Below are positions 4,092 through 20,329 of a stretch of 21,681 nucleotides of DNA, piece by piece (position 1 is the stretch's first letter; each line of letters begins with the position of its first letter). The notes under the pieces were generated by a model that saw only the letters and a program-made list of their open reading frames with translations, was not told where the DNA came from and did not search any database. A program made the translations under genes and the position numbers. Source of the DNA: a virus; the IMG/VR virus record IMGVR_UViG_3300032267_000071, positions 1-21,681 of that record. One strand, written 5' to 3'.

Positions 4092-7000
4092 TTATACTGG
4101 AATTTGAACAGTGGTCTGCCAAACAGTATTATTATAAATCTTTATTTTTTCAGCATCAAAAATCATACCTTCTTCATCATCAACGATAATCTTATTAGTT
4201 CCAACATACGTCTTATATATGTCTGCAGGGCTAATTCCGTAAAGGTCTGAGGCAGAAATAACAAGCACACCCTCCCAGGTGAAACTGTTTAGCCAAAACT
4301 CCCAATCAAAATTGGTTACGCCATCTGTTTTTACCTTTAGCCAAGGTCTATTTAAGGTACTTTGAACCTGTTGTAGGTTATTAGCCTGATAATAGGCTAT
4401 ATTATTAAATATCATTGGACCAGTTAGGTTAATTGCTCCTAGGAATGAGTCAAAGTTTAAAGCAGTAGAAAATGCAAGACCAAGAACTGCCCATTCCTTC
4501 TTTGTTATTACTGGTTCTCTAACAAGATTACCGTTTAAGAAATATGATAAACCATTAAAATCTTGACCTGTTGATTGATTACGAGCAAAGATTCTTCCTC
4601 TTGCTCCAGTCTCGCTGTCTGCCACCATATAAAACTTTATGGTATCGTCTTTATGTACAACTTCAAATAATTCTGTTGGTGTATTAGGGAAGAAATCTTC
4701 GTCATACCTCATCCAAATTTGTGCAGCGCTTACCTTGTAGGGGTTAGCAGTGCTTTCATTAATTGGAATGGCTATACCACGGTTTACTTGTGATGCAAAA
4801 TCTCCTCTGATCTCAATACCCGTTTTTCTATTTAGATATAGATATGGAGTGCTTCCCTTATAAATACTGAAAGGATTTTTAGCCTTGTAATCATAGTACA
4901 ATCCAGATCTAGTGTATGGGAACATGTTGACACCAAATCTTGTTCCAACAGCATTAAAGGAGTTATTGTTAAAGGCTTGAGATGCTAACTCTAACCTTCT
5001 TAGCGCAATTGGTTTTGTTAGAATATTTCTAATATTAAATTCAAGATGATAAACGATTGCTAAATCATTAAAGTCCTCTGTATTTGTTGGATAAATTAAT
5101 GTATTATCAACCACCTCAAACTTAGTGCTAAGCCAAGAAGGGTAATCATTCATATCAATAATTCGTTTAGATGTAGGATTTACGGTAGTTGTAAAACTAC
5201 TTTGAGGAAGGTTTGCTCCTAAAGCAATATATTGGAAAGTGATATAACTTCTTACAGAAGCACCTTCTGTATCGTACTCATAAGCCTTAATAGATTTTTC
5301 TGCCATATCGGCATAGTTTCTCCAGCCAGTAAATAAGAAATTATCTAACTGATAATAGGTTCTTTGGCTAGGGGTAGCATATTCATCTTGTAACTCTCCA
5401 TAAGTCCAACTTGGCGATACCGTTTCGCTTTCAGCAGATTCTGATGGTGCTGGATATCCAATGTTGAATTGCAAAAAATCTAAATCATAAAATTGATTGC
5501 CCACATCATTTGCCACATATTGAGCAAAATAAGAAAGTGGAAGGTAGTCTTGCCAATATCCAGAAACTCCAATGTCTAAGAAAAACTTGTTGTATGCCTC
5601 TGTTGGCAATAGCGTATAACTAGCGGTATGTTCTATTAATGCAATAGCATTTGTTTCTTCTACAACTCCGCTTTCCGACATATCATCAAATATTGCAATA
5701 CCATCTTCATTAAAATAAACATCAATATCAACAAAATTTGTTGCTGTTGATAAACCAAAAGAGTAGATTTTGCCTGTAAAGGTATTTAATGCTTCTTCAT
5801 CTCCAGCAACATAAATTTTTAAACCATTCTGATTACCAAAAAAGGCTGAAACATTTTCTCCAAAAGCGCTAGTAATTGCAGTAATGTCTATACCAACAGA
5901 GAAAAATTGATTAGACTCAATAGATGCCGTAGTGTATAACTCTTGGTCTATTCCATTATAATTTAAAATATACTTAACAACATCTTCTTCTTGTGTAATA
6001 ATAAAGTAATCCCCAGTTAAAGAGTTGTAAATCTTTATAAGAGTTTGTCCTTGTATTGTTGGTCCAGACTGAGCGTCTAGATCTGTTGTGCTAAACACAC
6101 CATAAATACTTCTAACTTGATTATTTAAAATATTAAAGTTGGGAAAGTTAAAGTAGCATTGTTCTGAATTCCAAGAATTATTTGGTCTAAAAGTAATGAA
6201 CTTGTATGATGGGTCTGTAGATTCGTTATAGCCAACCTGAACTACCTGACAGTCGTCATATAACTCTTGTAATGTTTTGGTGTCTAAAAATATTTCTGGT
6301 AATTGATAGTTTGGAGTAGTAATTGCAGTATCTGTTGTTGTTAAATTATCAAAAGACCCTTGTTGCCATTCAGCAAAATCAGGGTAATTATAGTTAGCCG
6401 TATAATCTGCAAATGGGTAATCAATAAATGCTGAAGTTCCACCATATGCTGAGTTAATTCCCTCTGGAGACAATACTCCTTGTCCATACACCCATCTACG
6501 TTTTGCAACTGTAACTGGAACCTGATATGGATAAATTGCTACACAGTCAATTTCAATAGGCGTAACATCTTGATATGCGTAAAAGCCAAGCCAGTCTTGT
6601 GACTTTGAGTTAACCTTTGGTAATGGTAAATCTAGAGTTTCTGTATTAATAATCATGGATATTACTTCTTCTCCATTTATCAATACCGTGGCTGAGTTCC
6701 TAATTAAACGTATATGAATAAGCATTGGTCTAAACCATTCGCCAACAAAATGTGATGCAAAGTTATTTCCTACTACTAAAGTTAAAAATCCACTTTCTAC
6801 ATAAAGACCATCAACGCTAGAGATAGGACCAAATATTCTTTTAGGAGTTTTAGTATTAGAGTTTATTCTTGCCCAAAACTCTATTGTTTGTTCTTTATAT
6901 CTACCAAGTTCGTTTAAAAATCCTTTACCTGGAACAATTAAAGAAGGTTCGTCAATAGTATTTGGAGAAAGAGTGGTAACTCCAGATGCACCAAAAACCA

Positions 7001-7751
7001 TAGGAACGCTTGAATTTTTTGCAACAAGAGCATTATCATTAACTAAGTAGTAGGCTTCATCAGAAGATATTCCATAGGCTGCTGCAGGAATAACTTCACT
7101 TGATGTTGTTAAAGCAATTGATGCTGGAAAAGATTCTGGGGTTACTCCAAGAGATGTGGCATTAAATTCTTCTGCCCATTGACCAATTGTAAAACCATTA
7201 ATGTGAAATCTATAATCTAATGAAGAAGCCCCGCCTGCAGCAGTTGTTATTTTAATTACTGCTCTTAGATCTGTATTTTCATTTGGTATTTCAAAGGTAC
7301 CTGAAACAAATGCCCAACTTTCAAATACTGTAGTGGGAAATGTTTTAAATTCTTGAACAATAGTGGATGTTGTGGTATCTGTATATTCATATCCAATAGA
7401 AACTGACTGCAGGTATGGGCTTTGAGAATAAAAGTAGGCTCCAACAGAAAATGTTGAAAGAGTTGAATTTAAATTATTAAAATTTACAAGATTAGGACTT
7501 ATACATATTAAATCGTTTGTTGCTCCTACTGGAATAGATCCTGCAAGTCTAGTAGAAATGCTTTCTGAGAATGGTTCATTTCCAAGTACATCTTCTACTG
7601 CTGTGCATCCAGAAATATCCCATTCTGCGGCAATGTCTCTTTCTGCTTCAGAGATTAAGGATATGTAGTCAGCCTGATCGTCTAATGCCCATAACACCAA
7701 TGGGTGTTCAGAATAAATCTTTTCTGCATATAAATTTGATGGGTTAGCCAT
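4092..7751 (-). CDS. Large lectin-like minor tail/structural protein, 1219 aa
   Basis: This is the longest gene in the window. The N-terminus (SNLYAEKIYSEHPLVLWALD, 5-24) resembles a tail-protein leader seen in environmental phages. Several beta-sandwich regions follow. Residues about 90-195 look like a carbohydrate-binding jelly roll. Residues about 280-415 look like a concanavalin/LamG fold (IEFWARINS, GLYVESGFLTLVV, RPMLIHIRLIRNSATVLING). A similar unit recurs near the C-terminus (AAQIWMRYDEDFF, LFEVVHKDDTIKFYM, YFLNGNLVREPVITKKEW). The protein is rich in Asn, Thr, Tyr and Phe and poor in Cys, with no signal peptide or membrane helix, as expected of a virion protein. It probably binds host-surface glycans. 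The start has AGGAG 5 nt upstream and a TGCTATAAT box 17 nt upstream. Its place between nrdJ and the portal is unusual. Fold assignments are by eye. Confidence 0.75.
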   Translation of the reverse strand: MANPSNLYAEKIYSEHPLVLWALDDQADYISLISEAERDIAAEWDISGCTAVEDVLGNEPFSESISTRLAGSIPVGATNDLICISPNLVNFNNLNSTLSTFSVGAYFYSQSPYLQSVSIGYEYTDTTTSTIVQEFKTFPTTVFESWAFVSGTFEIPNENTDLRAVIKITTAAGGASSLDYRFHINGFTIGQWAEEFNATSLGVTPESFPASIALTTSSEVIPAAAYGISSDEAYYLVNDNALVAKNSSVPMVFGASGVTTLSPNTIDEPSLIVPGKGFLNELGRYKEQTIEFWARINSNTKTPKRIFGPISSVDGLYVESGFLTLVVGNNFASHFVGEWFRPMLIHIRLIRNSATVLINGEEVISMIINTETLDLPLPKVNSKSQDWLGFYAYQDVTPIEIDCVAIYPYQVPVTVAKRRWVYGQGVLSPEGINSAYGGTSAFIDYPFADYTANYNYPDFAEWQQGSFDNLTTTDTAITTPNYQLPEIFLDTKTLQELYDDCQVVQVGYNESTDPSYKFITFRPNNSWNSEQCYFNFPNFNILNNQVRSIYGVFSTTDLDAQSGPTIQGQTLIKIYNSLTGDYFIITQEEDVVKYILNYNGIDQELYTTASIESNQFFSVGIDITAITSAFGENVSAFFGNQNGLKIYVAGDEEALNTFTGKIYSFGLSTATNFVDIDVYFNEDGIAIFDDMSESGVVEETNAIALIEHTASYTLLPTEAYNKFFLDIGVSGYWQDYLPLSYFAQYVANDVGNQFYDLDFLQFNIGYPAPSESAESETVSPSWTYGELQDEYATPSQRTYYQLDNFLFTGWRNYADMAEKSIKAYEYDTEGASVRSYITFQYIALGANLPQSSFTTTVNPTSKRIIDMNDYPSWLSTKFEVVDNTLIYPTNTEDFNDLAIVYHLEFNIRNILTKPIALRRLELASQAFNNNSFNAVGTRFGVNMFPYTRSGLYYDYKAKNPFSIYKGSTPYLYLNRKTGIEIRGDFASQVNRGIAIPINESTANPYKVSAAQIWMRYDEDFFPNTPTELFEVVHKDDTIKFYMVADSETGARGRIFARNQSTGQDFNGLSYFLNGNLVREPVITKKEWAVLGLAFSTALNFDSFLGAINLTGPMIFNNIAYYQANNLQQVQSTLNRPWLKVKTDGVTNFDWEFWLNSFTWEGVLVISASDLYGISPADIYKTYVGTNKIIVDDEEGMIFDAEKIKIYNNTVWQTTVQIPV

Positions 7752-7786: not shown

Positions 7787-9817
7787 TCAATAAAGTTTAA
7801 TCTCACAGGCATCTGTGCTGCAATAAGCCTCACCCTGTGCTTCTAGATTTTCTACTCCATCATAAATTGCAGACCAGTCAATTTTACCAATTGTTCCAAC
7901 ATATGCATTATATTCTTCTCTAGTTATTTGAGTATAAGGCTGTTGTGGATATGTTTTATTTCCCATTGGCAAAAATGATACTGCTTTTAATTGACCTTCG
8001 TACATATGAAGTGCTGGTGCAACATGCTTTGTTTCAGACTCTTTATCAAATGATAAAGTTACAGATACTCCATTGTCAGACCAATATTTTTGAGCGGTAG
8101 CAGCCAAACCAATCTTTTCAAAAAGACTTACATCTTTTTCAGAGCGAGGATGTCCAGATGCTACTGGGAAATATACTACTGAGGTATTTGCTGATACAAG
8201 ATCTGATTCAATCTTATACCCTGCTGCTTTAAATAAGTGCATCATTGGATCTGTATTTCCAAACCTAATAGCACGAAGATAAAATGCTCCACCTGGACCC
8301 CAATGAACTCCTGGCGTGGCTCCAGATAATAATGAAACAGATCCTGAAGGTTTAACGGTAGTTACACGAATTGATTCTCTAACACATAACCATTCTGAAT
8401 AACTATGGTCATATGAACGAATCTTTTGATACCCTTCGTCCATCCATTGACGCACTGTCGGCATTCCTTTTGTATCTGCAAAAGATGCAATACCAGTTAA
8501 AGATGTTCCAATGCGACGATTACGTTGCATAATTCCATTTGTGGTTTGCCAGTGAGTTGGCATAAGTGTTACGGTTTTTCCATATAGATATGCAAACTTT
8601 AATGTACGAAGAAAGTCTTCTTTATCTTCATGTCGATTAAGGTGAACTTCTACAAGGGTGCAGAGTTCATAACTTTCTAAGGGTTGTTCAGCGCAAGGAT
8701 TGAATCCCATTACACGAGTATCTTTATAGTCTGGAGCATCTGCAAGTCTTCCATACTCTCTTGCTACATCTAGCCAAATAAATCCTGGTTCACCATTATC
8801 TGCAATTAAATTTACATAATCTTCATACTTTGTTCCAACTTGTGCTGAAATAGAATTATTAGACATCCAAGCCCAACCAGGATTATTTGAGTCAAATGAG
8901 TTACGATCTGGAAAAACTTCTGCATTTTTTAAATTAATAAAATCTTTGTCTTCGGCATTTCCTAAAGCAAGGGTAGCGGAACGACGAACATTTCCAGAAA
9001 CAACGCATGTACCAATAAGGTTTACAATGTCTACTATTGCACGAGAGTCAAGTTTTTCTCCTGCTCTACCGCCAATTACGGTATTTATCCTATCATGTAG
9101 TGCTACAAGCGGTGCTGGACCACTAGCAACCCCTCCAAAGCCTTTTATTGGGGCACCTAGAGGACGGATAAGGTCATAGTTAAATTTCTGTATAGCCTGA
9201 TTAGGGCGCAGGTATGAGTTTAAGAGCATTCTAACTGAATCAACCCAACCTTCACGAGTGTCTGGAATATCCCATACATTTTCTGGTTCTGTTGGGGCAG
9301 AGATAACAATTTCTTTATCTTGTCCAATAGTATCAAACCCTACGCCTATTCCCAACATTAATGCATCCATAACCCATGCAAATAAGGCTCCTGGATCATT
9401 GCGATCAATATCACGAGTAGATACCATTGCACAATTTTGAAGGGAAGCAGAGTTTTTCTTTTCCATAGTCATAGGTGTTCCAAATGCCCATAGACCTCTA
9501 CCTGGTGGTGTCCATTTTAAATTAAACATACGGTCATAGGCTTCTTGAGCAGACTTTTGAGCCTTATTGTCATTCCAAGGTAAACGATTATCTTTAGCGT
9601 GGTTCTTTTGAACTGAGTACATTCCTTCAATTACCCGCTTACAAACCTCATGCCATCTTTCTTTTGTTCCATCTTCTTTCATGCGAGAATAAGTACGTAT
9701 AAAGGTAATTTCACCTAATGAGTTAGATCCTGCGTCTGTAAATCCAAACGGTGCTGGGACTCCAACATATTTATTTACGAATTCATCTGATAAACGAAAA
9801 GAAAAGACCTCTGACAT
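7787..9817 (-). CDS. nrdJ: Adenosylcobalamin-dependent ribonucleoside-triphosphate reductase (class II)
   Basis: The 676-aa product should reduce ribonucleotides to deoxyribonucleotides with vitamin B12 coenzyme, feeding phage DNA synthesis in the host cytoplasm. The active-site set of the monomeric Lactobacillus-type enzyme is complete: a cysteine in LQNCAMVS (C129), the NPCAEQPL loop (N373, C375, E377), its redox partner in YELCTLVEV (C386, the usual 11 residues after C375), and a C-terminal cysteine pair CSTDAC (C666, C671) for rereduction. PSGSVSLLSGATPGVH (490-505) is the expected substrate-site loop. At 676 aa it is somewhat shorter than the roughly 740-aa reference enzyme. ATG 9817 has only a weak Shine-Dalgarno sequence (AGAGAG, 11 nt away). 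The leader holds two competing hairpins. A nucleotide-metabolism gene amid structural genes is uncommon and implies expression with, or independent insertion into, the late region. Confidence 0.93.
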   Translation of the reverse strand: MSEVFSFRLSDEFVNKYVGVPAPFGFTDAGSNSLGEITFIRTYSRMKEDGTKERWHEVCKRVIEGMYSVQKNHAKDNRLPWNDNKAQKSAQEAYDRMFNLKWTPPGRGLWAFGTPMTMEKKNSASLQNCAMVSTRDIDRNDPGALFAWVMDALMLGIGVGFDTIGQDKEIVISAPTEPENVWDIPDTREGWVDSVRMLLNSYLRPNQAIQKFNYDLIRPLGAPIKGFGGVASGPAPLVALHDRINTVIGGRAGEKLDSRAIVDIVNLIGTCVVSGNVRRSATLALGNAEDKDFINLKNAEVFPDRNSFDSNNPGWAWMSNNSISAQVGTKYEDYVNLIADNGEPGFIWLDVAREYGRLADAPDYKDTRVMGFNPCAEQPLESYELCTLVEVHLNRHEDKEDFLRTLKFAYLYGKTVTLMPTHWQTTNGIMQRNRRIGTSLTGIASFADTKGMPTVRQWMDEGYQKIRSYDHSYSEWLCVRESIRVTTVKPSGSVSLLSGATPGVHWGPGGAFYLRAIRFGNTDPMMHLFKAAGYKIESDLVSANTSVVYFPVASGHPRSEKDVSLFEKIGLAATAQKYWSDNGVSVTLSFDKESETKHVAPALHMYEGQLKAVSFLPMGNKTYPQQPYTQITREEYNAYVGTIGKIDWSAIYDGVENLEAQGEAYCSTDACEIKLY

Positions 9818-15545: not shown

Positions 15546-16094
15546 ATGAGAGACAAGAATAAAGGAATGTGGTTGGGTTTATTAGCGTTGGTTGGGCTTT
15601 TTGCACCATTTTTAAATGCCGCTAATGCTCTTGAAACTAAAACTTTAATTACTATGCCAGTAGCAGCCGAAACCCCTAAAGGGGTTTTTTTGGTTTCTAC
15701 GGCTAAAACATTAGAAAAATATAAAAATGCTCATTCTTTAAACGATGGGCAGTTGGTTGACCTTTTAAAGGCAGTAGGCTTCAAAGGAAAGGCTTTACAA
15801 AGTGCATGTGCAATTGCTAAAGCGGAATCTAATGGAAGACCATTTGCTTTTAATGGCAATCTAAAAACTGGAGATAGTTCTTACGGCATGTTTCAAATCA
15901 ACATGATCGGTGAATTAGGTCTAGATCGTAGAGAAAAGTTTGAACTAGATTCAAACGCTGAGTTATTTAACCCAGTAGTAAATGCACAAGTGGCGCACTT
16001 TATGACCAAGGGCGGAAAAGACTGGTCATCATGGACTTCCCTCAATGGGAAACGGTATCAGGAATGGTACAACAAATATCCATGTAAAGCATAA
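15546..16094 (+). CDS. Exported SLT-type lysozyme / lytic transglycosylase
   Basis: This is the only plus-strand gene in the window. The 182-aa product should cleave peptidoglycan glycan strands. Residues 1-28 form a signal peptide: a basic start (MRDKNK), a hydrophobic core (WLGLLALVGLFAPFL) and an AxA-type cleavage site at ANA (26-28). A linker follows, then a lysozyme-like domain from about 65 with the catalytic glutamate in AKAESNGRPFAFN (E94), SSYGMFQINM (111-120) and a C-terminal helix pair (VVNAQVAHFM, WSSWTSLNGKRYQEWY). A lone cysteine near each end of the domain (C88, C180) could pair outside the cell. The start has AGGAGG 8 nt upstream. The gene has its own promoter and terminator and faces against both neighbours, so it is regulated apart from the virion genes. 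It may be an endolysin exported by the host's Sec pathway, or a cell-wall enzyme of another role. No holin is visible in the window. Confidence 0.85.
   Translation: MRDKNKGMWLGLLALVGLFAPFLNAANALETKTLITMPVAAETPKGVFLVSTAKTLEKYKNAHSLNDGQLVDLLKAVGFKGKALQSACAIAKAESNGRPFAFNGNLKTGDSSYGMFQINMIGELGLDRREKFELDSNAELFNPVVNAQVAHFMTKGGKDWSSWTSLNGKRYQEWYNKYPCKA
15670..15691 (+). terminator. Intrinsic terminator-like hairpin inside the lysozyme gene
   Basis: AAACCCC (15670-15676), loop TAAA, GGGGTTT (15681-15687), with an uninterrupted run of seven T (15685-15691). It covers codons 42-49 (TPKGVFL), in the linker between signal peptide and enzyme domain. It is oriented to stop plus-strand transcription only; in the other direction there is no T tract beyond the stem. 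By composition it is at least as canonical as the gene's end terminator. Function is unproven, since translating ribosomes would normally prevent folding. Confidence 0.6.
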
Positions 16095-16111: not shown

Positions 16112-16141
16112 ACCCCCCTTGCTTTTGGCTTGGGGGGTTTT
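16112..16141. terminator. Probably bidirectional terminator between convergent genes
   Basis: ACCCCCC (16112-16118), a 13-nt loop, GGGGGGT (16132-16138), then TTTTG on the plus strand. On the minus strand the same stem is followed by TATTTTATTTATT. It lies between the lysozyme stop codon (16094) and the stop codon of the convergent gene at 16158, and can end both transcripts. Confidence 0.8.
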
Positions 16142-16157
16142 GTTATTTAATTATTTA

Positions 16158-16508
16158 TTACTCAATCCAAGATTGAGTTTCTTCGTCCCACATAGTAGAG
16201 TTAGTCATAACTTCTGGATATGGAATTGGTGGGTCCCAAAGATATGTTTCTTCATTTAATGCCCATGAAGGATATGGTTTTGGTGGAATAAATGCATTTT
16301 TTGTTTCATCATATTTATAGCCTATTCCTGCAAAATGTTTTCTAAATCTTTTATTATATGATGTTTGTTTCCAATTAGAATGACCAAAAAGGTTATTTAA
16401 AAAGTCAATGCCTGATGCTTCTTGATTAGTCTCATCTAAAGAAAAATTACTTACAACTAAAACTTGTTTAACAATATTATTATCGTCTAGTTCCGCAAAG
16501 TGTGCCAT
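16158..16508 (-). CDS. Short FAxxENN-type phage protein, 116 aa (cassette 3 partner)
   Basis: The start is ATG 16508 (MAHFAELDDNNIVKQVLVVS); it overlaps the stop codon of the upstream glycine-rich gene by 1 nt (TAATG), so the longer in-frame start at 16538 is unlikely. The protein has the layout of a small family common in cyanophages and other aquatic phages: the FAELDDNN start, a middle with WKQTSYNKRFRKHFAGIGYK, and a proline/tryptophan-rich C-terminus (FIPPKPYPSWALNEETYLWD). The family's function is unknown to me. The 87-aa gene at 19221 is a clear paralogue, sharing the start and the WxQTSYN...FR...YAGxG segment. Each member follows a glycine-rich adhesin-like gene, which suggests a dedicated assembly or capping partner. 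No signal peptide. Confidence 0.78.
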   Translation of the reverse strand: MAHFAELDDNNIVKQVLVVSNFSLDETNQEASGIDFLNNLFGHSNWKQTSYNKRFRKHFAGIGYKYDETKNAFIPPKPYPSWALNEETYLWDPPIPYPEVMTNSTMWDEETQSWIE

Positions 16509-17641
16509 TAGAAAGTTATACTCCCAGTTCCAGTCCATTTATAATATCTATATCCACCAGATGTTGCAGTTGTTGGTGATCCAGTTGTTGTTTTTTCTGG
16601 AATAGAGTCAACGTGTCTAATCATTACAATTCCAGATCCTCCTGTTGATGATCCAGTACCGCCTGAACCAACAGTAACAGTATAAGTATTTCCTGGTGTA
16701 GGAGAAGTTCCTGATGTATATACTAATCCACCTGCACCGCCGCCACCGCCGCCGTATTGATTTCCACCATTAGATCCTCCGCCTGCTCCACCACCTGTGT
16801 TCGCAGTTGCAGAATCTCCAGCACTTCCGCCGCCTCTACCAGTTCCGCCACCACCGTAACCTCCTGCAGCAGTTGCACCTCCAGAAGTTCCACCTCCACC
16901 GCCACCTGCAAAATAATAAGTTGAAGAAACATTTTGTCCAGCAGTTAATGCTGCACCCCAAGCAGAATAAGTTGAAGATCCTACTCCACCAACACCACCA
17001 ACTGAACTGCCTGAGTTTCCATTAGAACCAGCAGCACCCGCACCGCCACCGCCTCCGCCAGTAGATGATGCGCTACTTCCACCAGCATTACCCTGACTAG
17101 CAGTTCCAGATCCTCCGCCATAAGGTCCACCGCCAGCAGAGCCACCTCCACCACCAGAACCACCAGCACGACCAGTGCTATTAACATTGTGTCCACCACC
17201 ACCTACTGCGGCAGTTAAAGAAATACCAGTTCCAGTTATACTTGAGTTAGTTCCATCACCATTTGATCCATCATATCTACTTGAGCCTCCACCACCAGCA
17301 ATTACAACTGAATCAAATAATAATGCTGTACCACTTGTAGCAGCAGATGCTGCAGATACTGCACTTGATCCAGTAGAGTTATTTGCTTTTACTGTAAATG
17401 TATATGATGTTCCTGCTGTAAAACTTGTTACAGAAATTGGACTTGATGTTCCAGTTGTCTCTGCGCTTCCTGGTGAAGCAATAACTGTATAAGATGTTGG
17501 TGTTCCTCCAGTAGTTGCAGGAGTAAATGCTACAGATATTAATCCAGCACTACCAGTTGCTGCTCCAATTGTTGGTGTATTTGGAATATCTGGAATTTTT
17601 TGTCCTGGCTCACTTGAAGTTGATCTATTATGGCTAGGCAT
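16508..17641 (-). CDS. Glycine-rich tail adhesin with Fn3 domain, 377 aa (cassette 3)
   Basis: After about 16 polar residues comes one fibronectin type III domain (about 17-105: TPTIGAATGSAGLISVAFTP, SYTVIASPGS, SYTFTVKANNSTGSSAVS). The rest is a glycine-rich domain (about 113-340) starting FDSVVIAGGGGSSRY, with many GGGGG runs, then NTYTVTVGSGGTG and GGSGIVMIRHVDS. It ends with GGYRYYKWTGTGSITF, a motif found at the start of the glycine-rich domain in the 280-aa protein (IYNFTGSGSITV). Glycine-rich tail proteins of this type can pack as polyglycine II sheets and act as adhesins, as in phage S16 gp38; that role here is an inference. ATG 17641 has GAGGAA 6 nt upstream. The 16158-16508 gene overlaps its stop codon. 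Confidence 0.75.
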   Translation of the reverse strand: MPSHNRSTSSEPGQKIPDIPNTPTIGAATGSAGLISVAFTPATTGGTPTSYTVIASPGSAETTGTSSPISVTSFTAGTSYTFTVKANNSTGSSAVSAASAATSGTALLFDSVVIAGGGGSSRYDGSNGDGTNSSITGTGISLTAAVGGGGHNVNSTGRAGGSGGGGGSAGGGPYGGGSGTASQGNAGGSSASSTGGGGGGAGAAGSNGNSGSSVGGVGGVGSSTYSAWGAALTAGQNVSSTYYFAGGGGGGTSGGATAAGGYGGGGTGRGGGSAGDSATANTGGGAGGGSNGGNQYGGGGGGAGGLVYTSGTSPTPGNTYTVTVGSGGTGSSTGGSGIVMIRHVDSIPEKTTTGSPTTATSGGYRYYKWTGTGSITF

Positions 17642-17644
17642 GTG

Positions 17645-17842
17645 TTATTCCTCTAAACTATTTGTTGGTAATGGAAAAAATGTATTTCCATCAATTCCTT
17701 CTGGGTATAACCATCCATGTGTATATTCAATATACTTACCTGGATTTTCTTCAACAACTTTTTCTTCTACTCCTGCAATAGTATTAATAACTGTGTTATT
17801 TTCAATTACTGCAAACAATCTTTTTGAAGGATCTAAAGACAT
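17645..17842 (-). CDS. Short FAxxENN-type protein, 65 aa (cassette 2 partner)
   Basis: The product starts SLDPSKRLFAVIENNTVINT and continues with IAGVEE, a PGKYIEYTHGWLYPEG segment and an acidic end (NSLEE). The FAVIENNTV segment aligns with FARVENNVV of the 87-aa protein and FAELDDNNIV of the 116-aa protein, but the later WxQTSYN part is missing, so it is a minimal or distant member. Start ATG 17842 has AAGGGG 6 nt upstream. It lies 10 nt after the glycine-rich gene at 17853 and 3 nt before the next glycine-rich gene. Probably an accessory to its neighbour; function unknown. Confidence 0.68.
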   Translation of the reverse strand: MSLDPSKRLFAVIENNTVINTIAGVEEKVVEENPGKYIEYTHGWLYPEGIDGNTFFPLPTNSLEE

Positions 17843-17852
17843 TTTTTACCCC

Positions 17853-18320
17853 TTATTGCCAATACTCTAATTCAATTCTACCAGCACCACCAGCAGCACC
17901 TACAAATGAATAATATGTTGATCCAGCAGTGCCACCAGCACCAATAGCATAAGCAATAGATGCACCTGGAGTTGTTGTTACAGTTGTAGTAACCATTTGT
18001 CCACCAGCACCAGTTCCAGTTCCATCGGCTGCACCAGAAGCACCCATTGCGCCATTGTTTGCACTATTACCAGCAACTGAGCCAGGGCTACTGTATGCGC
18101 CTTGTCCTGCAACGCCACCAAGAGCACTTGTTGCACCAGTAAATGTTGTAGTTCCTCCAGTGCCACCAATTCCTTGGCTTGATCCACTACCGCCACCGCC
18201 ACCAATAAGAGTTGCGTTAACGTATGTAACTCCATCTGGAACAGTCCAAGAAGTTCCTGAAGTTAAAACTATAAGTTTTCTAATTCCAGAAAAACCTGGT
18301 GTTGCACTTGATACTGACAT
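17853..18320 (-). CDS. Glycine-rich tail protein, 155 aa (cassette 2)
   Basis: The N-terminal part (IRKLIVLTSGTSWTVPDGVT, then YVNATLIGGGGGSGSS) is the classic opening of phage glycine-rich tail proteins. A Gly/Ala/Ser/Thr-rich body follows, then SIAYAIGAGGTAGSTYYSFV and the terminal strand GAGRIELEYWQ. It is the smallest of the three glycine-rich proteins and has no additional Fn3 domain. ATG 18320 overlaps the upstream stop codon by 1 nt (TAATG) and has only a weak ribosome-binding site, so it depends on coupling. Likely a tail-tip or fibre adhesin. Confidence 0.72.
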   Translation of the reverse strand: MSVSSATPGFSGIRKLIVLTSGTSWTVPDGVTYVNATLIGGGGGSGSSQGIGGTGGTTTFTGATSALGGVAGQGAYSSPGSVAGNSANNGAMGASGAADGTGTGAGGQMVTTTVTTTPGASIAYAIGAGGTAGSTYYSFVGAAGGAGRIELEYWQ

Positions 18321-18652
18321 TAGGCTATCTCACTTCCAAAAGCATTAAATGAAAGAGTTGCAGTTGATGCATATACTCTAATTAAATCTCCTGTTGCAAG
18401 TGTAACGCCTAGAGTTAAAAATGTTGAATCTGAGGCAGCAACTGTTGCGCCATACACAATCCAGTGTTTTGCTGTAGTCGATGCATCTGCTGAAGGACGA
18501 ATAGCAATTCTGTATGTTGCTGCTGTTCCTGCTTGATTTGCAATTGCAATTGTTGATACTACTGTGCTGCTTGATGCAGGCACAGTGTAAAGAGTTGTTT
18601 CTGTTGTCGCTGCTGGGTTGCTTTGCCCAAGGACTTTATATGTAGTTGCCAT
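18320..18652 (-). CDS. Small virion-type protein, 110 aa
   Basis: The product, MATTYKVLGQSNPAATTETT onward, has the compact beta pattern of a small phage structural protein: LYTVPASSSTVVSTIAIANQ, YRIAIRPSADASTTAKHWIV, and a C-terminal LATGDLIRVYASTATLSFNA. This series (VPA-x-STVVSTI ... GDLIRVYAS) recurs in small proteins encoded beside fibre genes in aquatic phages. ATG 18652 has GAGGAG 7 nt upstream. A poor -10 (TGGTAAAAT) lies in the 33-nt gap before it. It precedes and overlaps the glycine-rich cassette 2. No signal peptide; role unknown beyond the virion. Confidence 0.68.
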   Translation of the reverse strand: MATTYKVLGQSNPAATTETTLYTVPASSSTVVSTIAIANQAGTAATYRIAIRPSADASTTAKHWIVYGATVAASDSTFLTLGVTLATGDLIRVYASTATLSFNAFGSEIA

Positions 18653-18674
18653 TAGTTATTCTCCTCGTTAGTAT

Positions 18675-18683
18675 ATTTTACCA
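18675..18683 (-). promoter_or_regulatory. Weak extended -10 candidate before the 110-aa gene
   Basis: TGGTAAAAT on the minus strand, with an overlapping TATACT (18675-18670) just downstream, in the 33-nt gap before ATG 18652. It deviates from the TATAAT consensus of the other sites. Confidence 0.3.
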
Positions 18684-18685
18684 TA

Positions 18686-19201
18686 TTATGCACCCATCAA
18701 CATAAATGGACTAAATGATTCTCCAGATACCGCTTGCCATTTAACACCATTGGTTGCAGTAGAATCTGCTGTTAAAACTGTTCCATTTGTACCAACTGTA
18801 AGTTTAACTGGTGAGTCATCTGCTCCACCAACAATAAGGTCTCCCTTAGCATCAATAATAGTATCACTTGTGATACCTTTCCAAGCAGATCCATTGTAAA
18901 ATTGAATTTGGTTTAATGCACTTCCACCTGAATCTTGACGAACAAATACGATTGTTCCTCGTACTGGTGTAGCCAATGCTGCATCTCTTGCTGCTGGGTT
19001 TAGGAAGTTATTCCAACCTGCAGTAGCAGTAACTGCATCATCAAATAAAACGGTATTGATAAAACTATTCGCTCCAGTAAACTCATAAGCAGCAGTAGTA
19101 TCAATTTGAGCCCCTACTGGATACCATACGCCATCAGATGAGGTTGCCCCACCTTTAAACATGTATGCTGGTCTACCTGATGTATCGAATGTAATTGCCA
19201 T
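18686..19201 (-). CDS. Fibre-type protein with module C, 171 aa
   Basis: The N-terminal two-thirds (TFDTSGRPAYMFKGGATSSD, PVRGTIVFVRQDSGGSALNQ, IQFYNGSAWKGI) look like a small domain found near fibre bases. The C-terminus carries module C, IIDAKGDLIVGGADDSPVKL, then GTNGTVLTADSTATNGVKWQ, and ends SFSPFMLMGA. Module C links it to the two large repeat fibres at 9971 and 11841. ATG 19201 has no Shine-Dalgarno sequence; an extended -10 box, TGTTATAAT, ends 6 nt upstream, so a leaderless start is predicted. It follows cassette 1 after 19 nt. Confidence 0.7.
   Translation of the reverse strand: MAITFDTSGRPAYMFKGGATSSDGVWYPVGAQIDTTAAYEFTGANSFINTVLFDDAVTATAGWNNFLNPAARDAALATPVRGTIVFVRQDSGGSALNQIQFYNGSAWKGITSDTIIDAKGDLIVGGADDSPVKLTVGTNGTVLTADSTATNGVKWQAVSGESFSPFMLMGA
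18730..18859 (-). repeat. Shared fibre module C, copy 3
   Basis: Encodes the DAKGDLIVG...VGTNGTVLTADSTATNGVKW block at the C-terminus of the 171-aa protein, about 5 kb from the copy in the 644-aa gene and about 8 kb from that in the 460-aa gene. Confidence 0.65.
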
Positions 19202-19207
19202 AGTGTT

Positions 19208-19216
19208 ATTATAACA
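19208..19216 (-). promoter_or_regulatory. Extended -10 promoter at the 19201 start
   Basis: TGTTATAAT on the minus strand; TATAAT (19213-19208) ends only 6 nt before ATG 19201, with no Shine-Dalgarno sequence. It lies in the 19-nt gap after the 87-aa gene. Confidence 0.6.
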
Positions 19217-19220
19217 GATT

Positions 19221-19484
19221 TTACTCTGGTACTTCCTCCGTTACCGTTGGTGTTGTGAAAATATCTAATACTGGATCATAGGTCATTCCTGATCCTGCGT
19301 ATGTTCCTCTAAAATTTGAGTTATATGAGGTTTGTAGCCAATCAGTATCAGCACCATATAAGGACTTGCAGAATGCAATACCAATTGCTTCTGATTCTGG
19401 GAATGATTTATTTTCTAGTACTTCATTATTAATTACAATAACTTCTCTAACAACATTATTTTCTACTCTTGCAAAGTGTGCCAT
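19221..19484 (-). CDS. Short FAxxENN-type protein, 87 aa (cassette 1 partner)
   Basis: The product starts MAHFARVENNVVREVIVINN and has FCKSLYGADTDWLQTSYNSN followed by FRGTYAGSGMTYDPVLDIF. It is a paralogue of the 116-aa protein at 16158 over almost its whole length but lacks that protein's Pro/Trp-rich tail. ATG 19484 is 2 nt after the stop codon of the 280-aa glycine-rich gene, with GGAT upstream, so it is translated together with it. Function unknown; the pairing with glycine-rich genes points to assembly of, or binding to, the adhesin. Confidence 0.76.
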   Translation of the reverse strand: MAHFARVENNVVREVIVINNEVLENKSFPESEAIGIAFCKSLYGADTDWLQTSYNSNFRGTYAGSGMTYDPVLDIFTTPTVTEEVPE

Positions 19485-19486
19485 AA

Positions 19487-20329
19487 TTATCCAATCACCA
19501 CTATCACTACGCCTGAACCACCAGAACCACCAGTTCCTGATGACTGACCAGCAGCACCACCACCACCGCCAAGATTAGTTGTTCCAGATGTTCCATTAGT
19601 TGTTAGTGAAGCAGCACCTCCACCACCTGAGCCACCTGAACCCGCTGCAGCACTTCCACCACCACCGCCACCACCTGCATAAGTTACAGATGTGCCAGTA
19701 ATTGAGTTTGCTGAACCAGCACCTCCAGCGCCACCATTACCATTTACAGTTGTTGCAGTCCCAGCAGCACCAGCACCGCCACCACCAGGGGCAGAAGAAT
19801 TAAAGTTAGAAGCGTTAGCACCACCATTGTTACCCTGTCCAGGAACACCTAAACCTACTGTTGGTGGTGACCTAAAACTAGAATATCCACAACCACCACC
19901 TGAACCGCCTGAACGACCATCAGGGTTAAAAGAACCAGAACCAGAAGTTCCACCGCCACCGCCACCAAAAGCGTAATAATCTCCTAAGCGTGATGATGTG
20001 CCATTTATCCCATCACTTTGTGCGTTGTAACTACCGCCTCCTGCGCCTACTGTTACAGTTAAAGTTCCAGAAGGTAAAATTGCTGATGTGTTGTATAAGT
20101 ATCCACCCGCTCCTCCACCGCCTCCGCCACGACCCGCACCGCCACCGCCACCGCCTACAACTAAAATTTCACAAGTGCCAGGTGTAGCAACAGTAATAGA
20201 GCCACTGCCAGTAAAATTGTAAATAGTTTTTCCAGCACGAGAGGAAGTATCAATAGTTGGAGAACCAGTAGTAGCAGTTACTGTTGCTTTACCAATTCCA
20301 CCTGCAGATACTAGGTTCATTAATGGCAT
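19487..20329 (-). CDS. Glycine-rich tail adhesin, 280 aa (cassette 1)
   Basis: A short N-terminus leads to IYNFTGSGSITV and CEILVVGGGGGGAGRGGGGG, the signature opening of the glycine-rich tail domain. Residues about 60-275 are dominated by GGGGG, GGSGGG and GAGGAG runs, including GYLYNTSAILPSGTLTVTVG and a DYYAFGGGGGGTSGSG segment. It closes with GGSGGSGVVIVVIG. No domain besides the glycine-rich one is visible, and no signal peptide. ATG 20329 has AAGGAGA about 4 nt upstream. The run-rich coding sequence makes the complementary strand look like proline-rich genes, which are artefacts. Likely a receptor-binding tail component; the polyglycine fold is an inference. Confidence 0.76.
   Translation of the reverse strand: MPLMNLVSAGGIGKATVTATTGSPTIDTSSRAGKTIYNFTGSGSITVATPGTCEILVVGGGGGGAGRGGGGGGAGGYLYNTSAILPSGTLTVTVGAGGGSYNAQSDGINGTSSRLGDYYAFGGGGGGTSGSGSFNPDGRSGGSGGGCGYSSFRSPPTVGLGVPGQGNNGGANASNFNSSAPGGGGAGAAGTATTVNGNGGAGGAGSANSITGTSVTYAGGGGGGGSAAAGSGGSGGGGAASLTTNGTSGTTNLGGGGGAAGQSSGTGGSGGSGVVIVVIG

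Follow-up and report, generated by a model that had tools for sequence, protein, structure and literature searches.

gp25 is the fibre chaperone of cyanophage Pam3, and it has been solved together with the glycine-rich tail fibre gp24 as a 3:3 complex (PDB 7YPX; PMC9608196). In gp25, an N-terminal beta-sandwich built from five strands and one helix (residues 1-55) grips gp24 where the jelly-roll meets the polyglycine loops, the C-terminal helices trimerise, and the published mechanism makes use of this trimerisation domain (PMC9608196). When gp24 is expressed alone, it ends up largely in inclusion bodies, and it is soluble when gp25 is co-expressed (PMC9608196). Fibre chaperones have also been described in Alteromonas phages, namely gp27 of V22 and gp9 of A5, for which a role as transient cap has been proposed (PMC7289586, PMC10579305). 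The chaperone principle itself is already known, from Pam3 and from Tfa. The subject here is an IMG/VR virus fragment of 21,681 nucleotides (nt) (record IMGVR_UViG_3300032267_000071; this whole stretch is called the window below), in which three glycine-rich adhesin genes are each followed by a small partner gene. With a probability of about 85%, the three small genes are taken to encode dedicated minimal assembly chaperones, each serving the glycine-rich receptor-binding tip whose gene stands just before its own.

The rest of the window has genes for portal, head protease, tail fibre and ribonucleotide reductase, which places the adhesin string in the tail region of a tailed phage. The features of the string are as follows (lengths in amino acids, aa; pLDDT, predicted local distance difference test).

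19487..20329, minus strand: glycine-rich adhesin A (P0007), 280 aa, Pfam Gly_rich_2 (PF21722, 7.9e-18)
19221..19484, minus strand: partner A (P0004), 87 aa, predicted core client-binding domain alone; phrog_7759, 1.9e-23; AlphaFold2 pLDDT 91.6
17853..18320, minus strand: glycine-rich adhesin B (P0006), 155 aa, weak Gly_rich_2 match under the cut-off
17645..17842, minus strand: partner B (P0003), 65 aa, putative short divergent version of the N-domain; phrog_14370, 0.0083
16508..17641, minus strand: glycine-rich adhesin C (P0005), 377 aa, N-terminal fn3 domain and additional C-terminal strand motif
16158..16508, minus strand: partner C (P0001/P0002), about 116 aa, core domain plus Trp-rich tail; AlphaFold2 pLDDT 95.8
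16278..16508, minus strand: predicted core (client-binding) domain of partner C, about residues 1-77, from the alignment and the secondary structure of the model
16161..16277, minus strand: Trp-rich C-terminal tail of partner C (KPYPSWALNEETYLW...MWDEETQSW), about residues 78-116, from the alignment
16112..16138, no strand assigned: terminator-like hairpin with a T-rich flank on both strands, -18.3 and -16.7 kcal/mol, z -3.1 and -2.6

The order of transcription on the minus strand is adhesin A, partner A, two other tail genes (18686-19201 and 18320-18652, standing between pair A and pair B), adhesin B, partner B, adhesin C and partner C, after which the hairpin closes the string. The natural start of partner C is the ATG at 16508, which gives MAHFAELDD, and the listed 126-aa open reading frame (ORF) carries a 10-codon upstream extension. 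The original prediction, made from the letters alone, had described three glycine-rich genes, each with a small FAxxENN gene directly behind it; the coordinates, the three adhesin lengths and the spacing (2 nt between the genes of pair A, 10 nt in pair B and a 1-nt overlap, TAATG, in pair C) all agree with this, and the openings FARVENNVV, FAVIENNTV and FAELDDNNIV are found in the partners. The motif proposed for the two longer partners is indeed common to both in the form WxQTSYNxxFRxx[YF]AGxG, except that one copy reads FAG instead of YAG.

The pairing is not peculiar to this window. Three samples with differing selection were used, namely small-gene loci, cultured phages and glycine-rich genes chosen blind to the partner. 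In 87 IMG/VR loci selected by the small gene alone, a glycine-rich gene (one with at least 35% Gly in some 60-aa stretch) lies immediately upstream in 95 of the 107 copies with a readable neighbour, and 34 of 38 clusters (70% identity) hold at least one copy in this position. Of the 927 genes called in these loci, 116 count as glycine-rich, and 93 of them are the genes that precede the small family. Among the distinct cultured phages found via partner C, the small gene stands behind a glycine-rich gene in 16 of 21. For the partner-blind sample, loci were picked by a C-terminal motif of glycine-rich genes, which gave 109 usable genes; the next gene belongs to the small family in 57, is another glycine-rich gene in 25 and is something else in 27, and the 57 of 109 is a lower bound, since members of the small family that escape the profile used at this step do not enter the count. 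The association of adhesin and partner is therefore general and more than chance, and the survey of preceding genes that the original prediction had proposed shows a family that does not commonly occur away from glycine-rich genes.

As regards the partner proteins themselves, partners A and C belong to PHROG 7759 by profile (A, 1.9e-23; C, 1.4e-40 to 6.3e-42) and match PHROG 14370 more weakly, to which the core domain corresponds; both PHROGs are recorded without function. Partner B does not match the PHROG 7759 profile, and its phrog_14370 match is weak. Direct searches of IMG/VR and of phage records found no relative of partner B, so its membership rests on the N-domain profile, against which it scores 13.4 bits, with none of 20,000 shuffles as high. 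AlphaFold2 models of partners C and A, built with an alignment of IMG/VR relatives, reach the confidence listed above and predict a core domain of about 60-80 aa with a beta hairpin, a helix and three short strands. In these models the only helix lies inside the core domain, and a C-terminal alpha-helical trimerisation domain is not present in the window partners (65-116 aa); in a Pfam scan, none of the three matched Caudo_TAP (PF02413) or Phage_tail_APC (PF16778) above cut-off. The Trp-rich tail is found on partner C and not on partners A and B, and it is duplicated in the 170-aa partner of locus L009. Moreover, a C-terminal adhesin strand accompanies 27 of 93 partners with the Trp-rich tail versus 4 of 71 short partners, as counts uncorrected for relatedness. 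A first family alignment (A1) was too diverse to scan the collection for a pattern. No natural fusion of an adhesin with its partner was found; two long ORFs, in L126 and L006, are alternative-frame extensions across the glycine-rich gene. No relatives of partner A were found in bacterial genome contigs, hence there is no prophage evidence from this source.

The comparison with gp25 connects this family to a protein of known role. A sequence search of the PDB returned no relatives of the small family, and a search of a viral structure library with a partner model returned mostly uncharacterised phage proteins. When the core model of partner A was compared with the PDB by Foldseek, the first rank was 7ypx_a (probability 0.77; next matches at most 0.08, none of them credible), a chain of 162 residues as in Pam3 gp25, and the separate model of partner C also selected 7ypx_a (0.66). 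An enlarged N-domain profile (29-30 members) scores 16.1 bits against gp25 residues 1-64, a value that none of 50,000 shuffles reached, and an hhalign alignment of this profile with gp25 spans 54 columns (P 2.6e-5). Fold and profile thus show that the small family has a domain homologous to the client-binding domain of gp25. The original prediction had stated that no function was described for the small family, which is correct for the family itself, but its relative gp25 does have one. Its suggestion that the small protein could serve a polyglycine adhesin as specific chaperone or cap is supported by the gp25 precedent (PMC9608196) and by the homology in fold and profile.

A scan with a short member gave relatives that have the same N-domain and differing C-terminal parts, that is, none, a Trp-rich tail, Phage_tail_APC or other longer tails, and 22 of 27 N-domain relatives in this set stand behind a glycine-rich gene. 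In L250 the N-domain precedes a Phage_tail_APC domain (PF16778, 5e-9), and in Goslar it (phrog_14370, 7e-10) precedes a Tfa-type domain. Using the N-domains from L023, Bcep1 and Goslar as tblastn queries, seven distant cultured phages with widely differing annotations were reached by the N-domain alone, without use of glycine-rich fibre tips: Bcep1 (gp32), Magia, Voja-6, Goslar (tail fiber assembly protein), Salmonella phage Arash, Pantoea AH07 and Klebsiella Kp4865-2. The N-domain comes directly after a fibre with a C-terminal glycine-rich domain in 7/7 (60-aa glycine maximum 0.30-0.50), so the N-domain goes with polyglycine tips in unrelated phages. Taken together with the profile match to gp25, this shows that the gp25 client-binding domain is common to the family and accompanies polyglycine tips. 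Phages that carry members of PHROG 7759 and 14370, or their close relatives, infect Pelagibacter, Synechococcus, Prochlorococcus, roseobacters, Methylophilales, Burkholderia, Pseudomonas and enterobacteria.

Several observations weigh against a chaperone function of the small genes. The Foldseek E-values of the two gp25 matches, 0.45 and 0.65, are not significant alone; early profile comparisons with gp25 were weak (102 of 4,674 scored shuffles equally good; P 0.0035 by another comparison), and the sequence link became significant only once the N-domain set had been enlarged. The window partners are also without the trimerisation domain of gp25 on which the published mechanism relies. As for the pairing, the small gene is not directly behind a glycine-rich gene in 5 of the 21 cultured phages; in DSL-LC04 the glycine-rich gene is three genes upstream, and in L085 an HNH-endonuclease-like gene (1753-2226) stands directly before the partner gene, in the expected adhesin position. 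In S-SSM5 and S-CAM8 the small gene lies inside a cluster of 2OG-Fe(II) oxygenase (2-oxoglutarate- and iron-dependent) genes with no adjoining glycine-rich gene, and in S-MS29 no glycine-rich gene adjoins it either. These three phages would suit an explanation in which adhesin and partner are mere neighbours by inheritance of a module, the small gene encoding some other tail protein or an accessory factor whose action does not depend on the adhesin. That explanation is considered very improbable, since the pairing spans unrelated lineages and hosts with varied C-terminal domains on one N-domain, a polyglycine tip adjoins in all seven distant phages, and the domain is homologous to one proven to bind a client in gp25; the co-inheritance described below is a further, suggestive point against it.

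The adhesins show a parallel likeness. Adhesin A passes the Gly_rich_2 cut-off of 24.3 bits with 65.7 bits; adhesins B (17.5 bits) and C (21.1 bits, 3.4e-4) score under it, and Pam3 gp24 is also just under it (23.8 bits, 5e-5). The family phrog_863, annotated as tail fiber assembly, is matched by adhesins A and B and by Pam3 gp24, so that Gly_rich_2 and phrog_863 matches are common to gp24 and the window adhesins to varying degree; gp24 is in turn similar to S16 gp38 (PMC9608196). The N-terminus of adhesin C is an fn3 domain (4.3e-6). PDB matches of adhesin A, to a single-chain variable fragment (scFv) and a plant lipid transfer protein, look like low-complexity noise. As a separate observation, the strand motif TGSPT...Y.F/W.GSGSITx is C-terminal in adhesin C (16508-16650) and N-terminal in adhesin A (20200-20300); this placement resembles a circularly permuted jelly-roll, and both forms recur in other phages.

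The original prediction had also held that the pair was duplicated as a unit. A recent duplication of one adhesin-partner unit within this phage would be compatible with the chaperone function, and it would fit three pairs within 4.2 kb and the phrog_7759 core common to partners A and C. It is nevertheless judged unlikely: partner B is of a different, short subfamily, pair A is separated from pair B by two other tail genes, and partner A is about 40% identical to partner C but 89-91% identical to copies in other phages, a pattern more readily explained by exchange among phages or by an old duplication. Phages that carry two pairs were used for a matched-swap test, in which 15 of the 20 quartets agree and 6 of 200 permutations are as high; this is no more than suggestive of partners and adhesins travelling together. 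With partners of different subfamilies and co-inheritance at this level, duplication as a unit within this phage is not supported.

As to the mechanism, the core domain most likely binds the adhesin at the jelly-roll/polyglycine junction during folding, like gp25, and would probably keep the polyglycine strands, which are prone to aggregate, in register until folding and trimerisation of the adhesin are complete; the partner may then leave, or stay temporarily as a cap. It could instead be a permanent part of the virion, either a cap or co-adhesin on the tip or an adaptor between adhesin and shaft, just as Tfa of Mu and gp38 of S16 stay on their fibres. The homologous gp25 domain does bind the distal fibre tip (PMC9608196), and Tfa of Mu remains fibre-bound, as cited in PMC7289586 and PMC10579305; moreover, the sequence of adhesin A has almost no N-terminal attachment region, so some adaptor must exist. 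A permanent role is all the same rated improbable, because gp25, the closest studied homologue, was undetected in Pam3 virions by mass spectrometry and sits over those loops of the tip to which receptor binding has been ascribed as a proposal (PMC9608196). Beyond the assembly chaperones of this window, it is put forward tentatively, as a real possibility short of even odds, that there is a widespread phage class of stripped-down chaperones specific for polyglycine tips, with the client-binding domain alone and no need of a trimerisation domain, with variable C-terminal additions (from none to a Trp-rich tail, a helical part or Phage_tail_APC) tuned to tip architecture, and with several cognate, non-interchangeable pairs in one phage.

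Other genes of the neighbourhood were also recorded. In many cultured phages, 2OG-Fe(II) oxygenase genes, some annotated as leprecan-like, adjoin the adhesin/partner pair (L090 2394-3014, L094 3504-4115, L099 5308-6327, L104 4047-5317, L107 4616-6339, L109 4149-5390 and L110 3589-4817), and it is conceivable that they encode a hydroxylase acting on fibre proteins. A second small unnamed family of 72-94 aa, YxLYGIDxAMHLLRPGAxWEISN..FSxWDDxRPCPTMEEV, lies just 3′ of glycine-rich genes (L090 2113-2397, L003 47-265, also L135 and L130), sometimes between adhesin and partner. Within the window, the ribonucleotide reductase gene (phrog_367, 7787-9817) stands amid tail and portal genes. At 15546-16094 a single plus-strand gene faces the adhesin string, with a signal-peptide-like start and a lysozyme/transglycosylase-like look, and 4092-7751 encodes a 1219-aa protein that is probably a large fibre or lectin-like structural protein; neither had a PHROG match at 0.001.

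Four things are new: PHROGs 7759 and 14370 receive a proposed function, the chaperone occurs in a minimal form that lacks the trimerisation domain, its N-domain accompanies polyglycine tips in a range of phages, and a single phage has three pairs; in the open-licence literature no paper was found on the PHROG numbers or on the adhesin-partner gene pair. The function proposed for these two families is a testable one, and in environmental phages, where fibres are difficult to identify by other means, the small gene can serve as a marker of the receptor-binding tip. In practice, it should be co-expressed when a glycine-rich tip is produced for binding assays. A chaperone without trimerisation domain would, in addition, reveal on which of its two halves the action of the gp25/Tfa machine depends.

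In comparison with known systems, the window partners are alike to Pam3 gp25 in that the gene stands directly behind a glycine-rich fibre gene (3/3 in the window and 95/107 in the IMG/VR loci; 11 nt downstream of gp24 in Pam3), in the homologous N-terminal beta-sandwich domain and in client tips that match Gly_rich_2. They differ in that gp25 has 162 aa and a helical C-terminal trimerisation domain, whereas the partners have 65, 87 and 116 aa without it, and in partner C its place is taken by a Trp-rich tail; a single pair has been described in Pam3, against three in this phage. V22 gp27 and A5 gp9 are likewise encoded directly 3′ of a receptor-binding fibre gene, and the V22 protein is needed for fibre function, but they are helical, with an intramolecular-chaperone-like fold of DUF4376 type, and their clients are not described as polyglycine adhesins. 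With the polyglycine adhesin gp38 of S16 and the T-even phages, the likeness lies with the adhesins (phrog_863 in A, B and Pam3 gp24) and not with the small partner. With respect to the two PHROGs, partners A and C fall in 7759, the core domain corresponds to 14370, and partner B is marginal by these profiles. Tfa or tail fibre assembly proteins such as Goslar gp89 and Pantoea AH07 gp24 begin with the same N-domain and come after fibres with glycine-rich tips, but the C-terminal chaperone domains that Pfam defines for Tfa (Caudo_TAP) and Phage_tail_APC are not in the window partners. Since the helical trimerisation domain seen in gp25 and in classical Tfa proteins is lacking, the window partners are placed neither with the two-domain gp25 type nor with Tfa, but as a new variant that would work like both.

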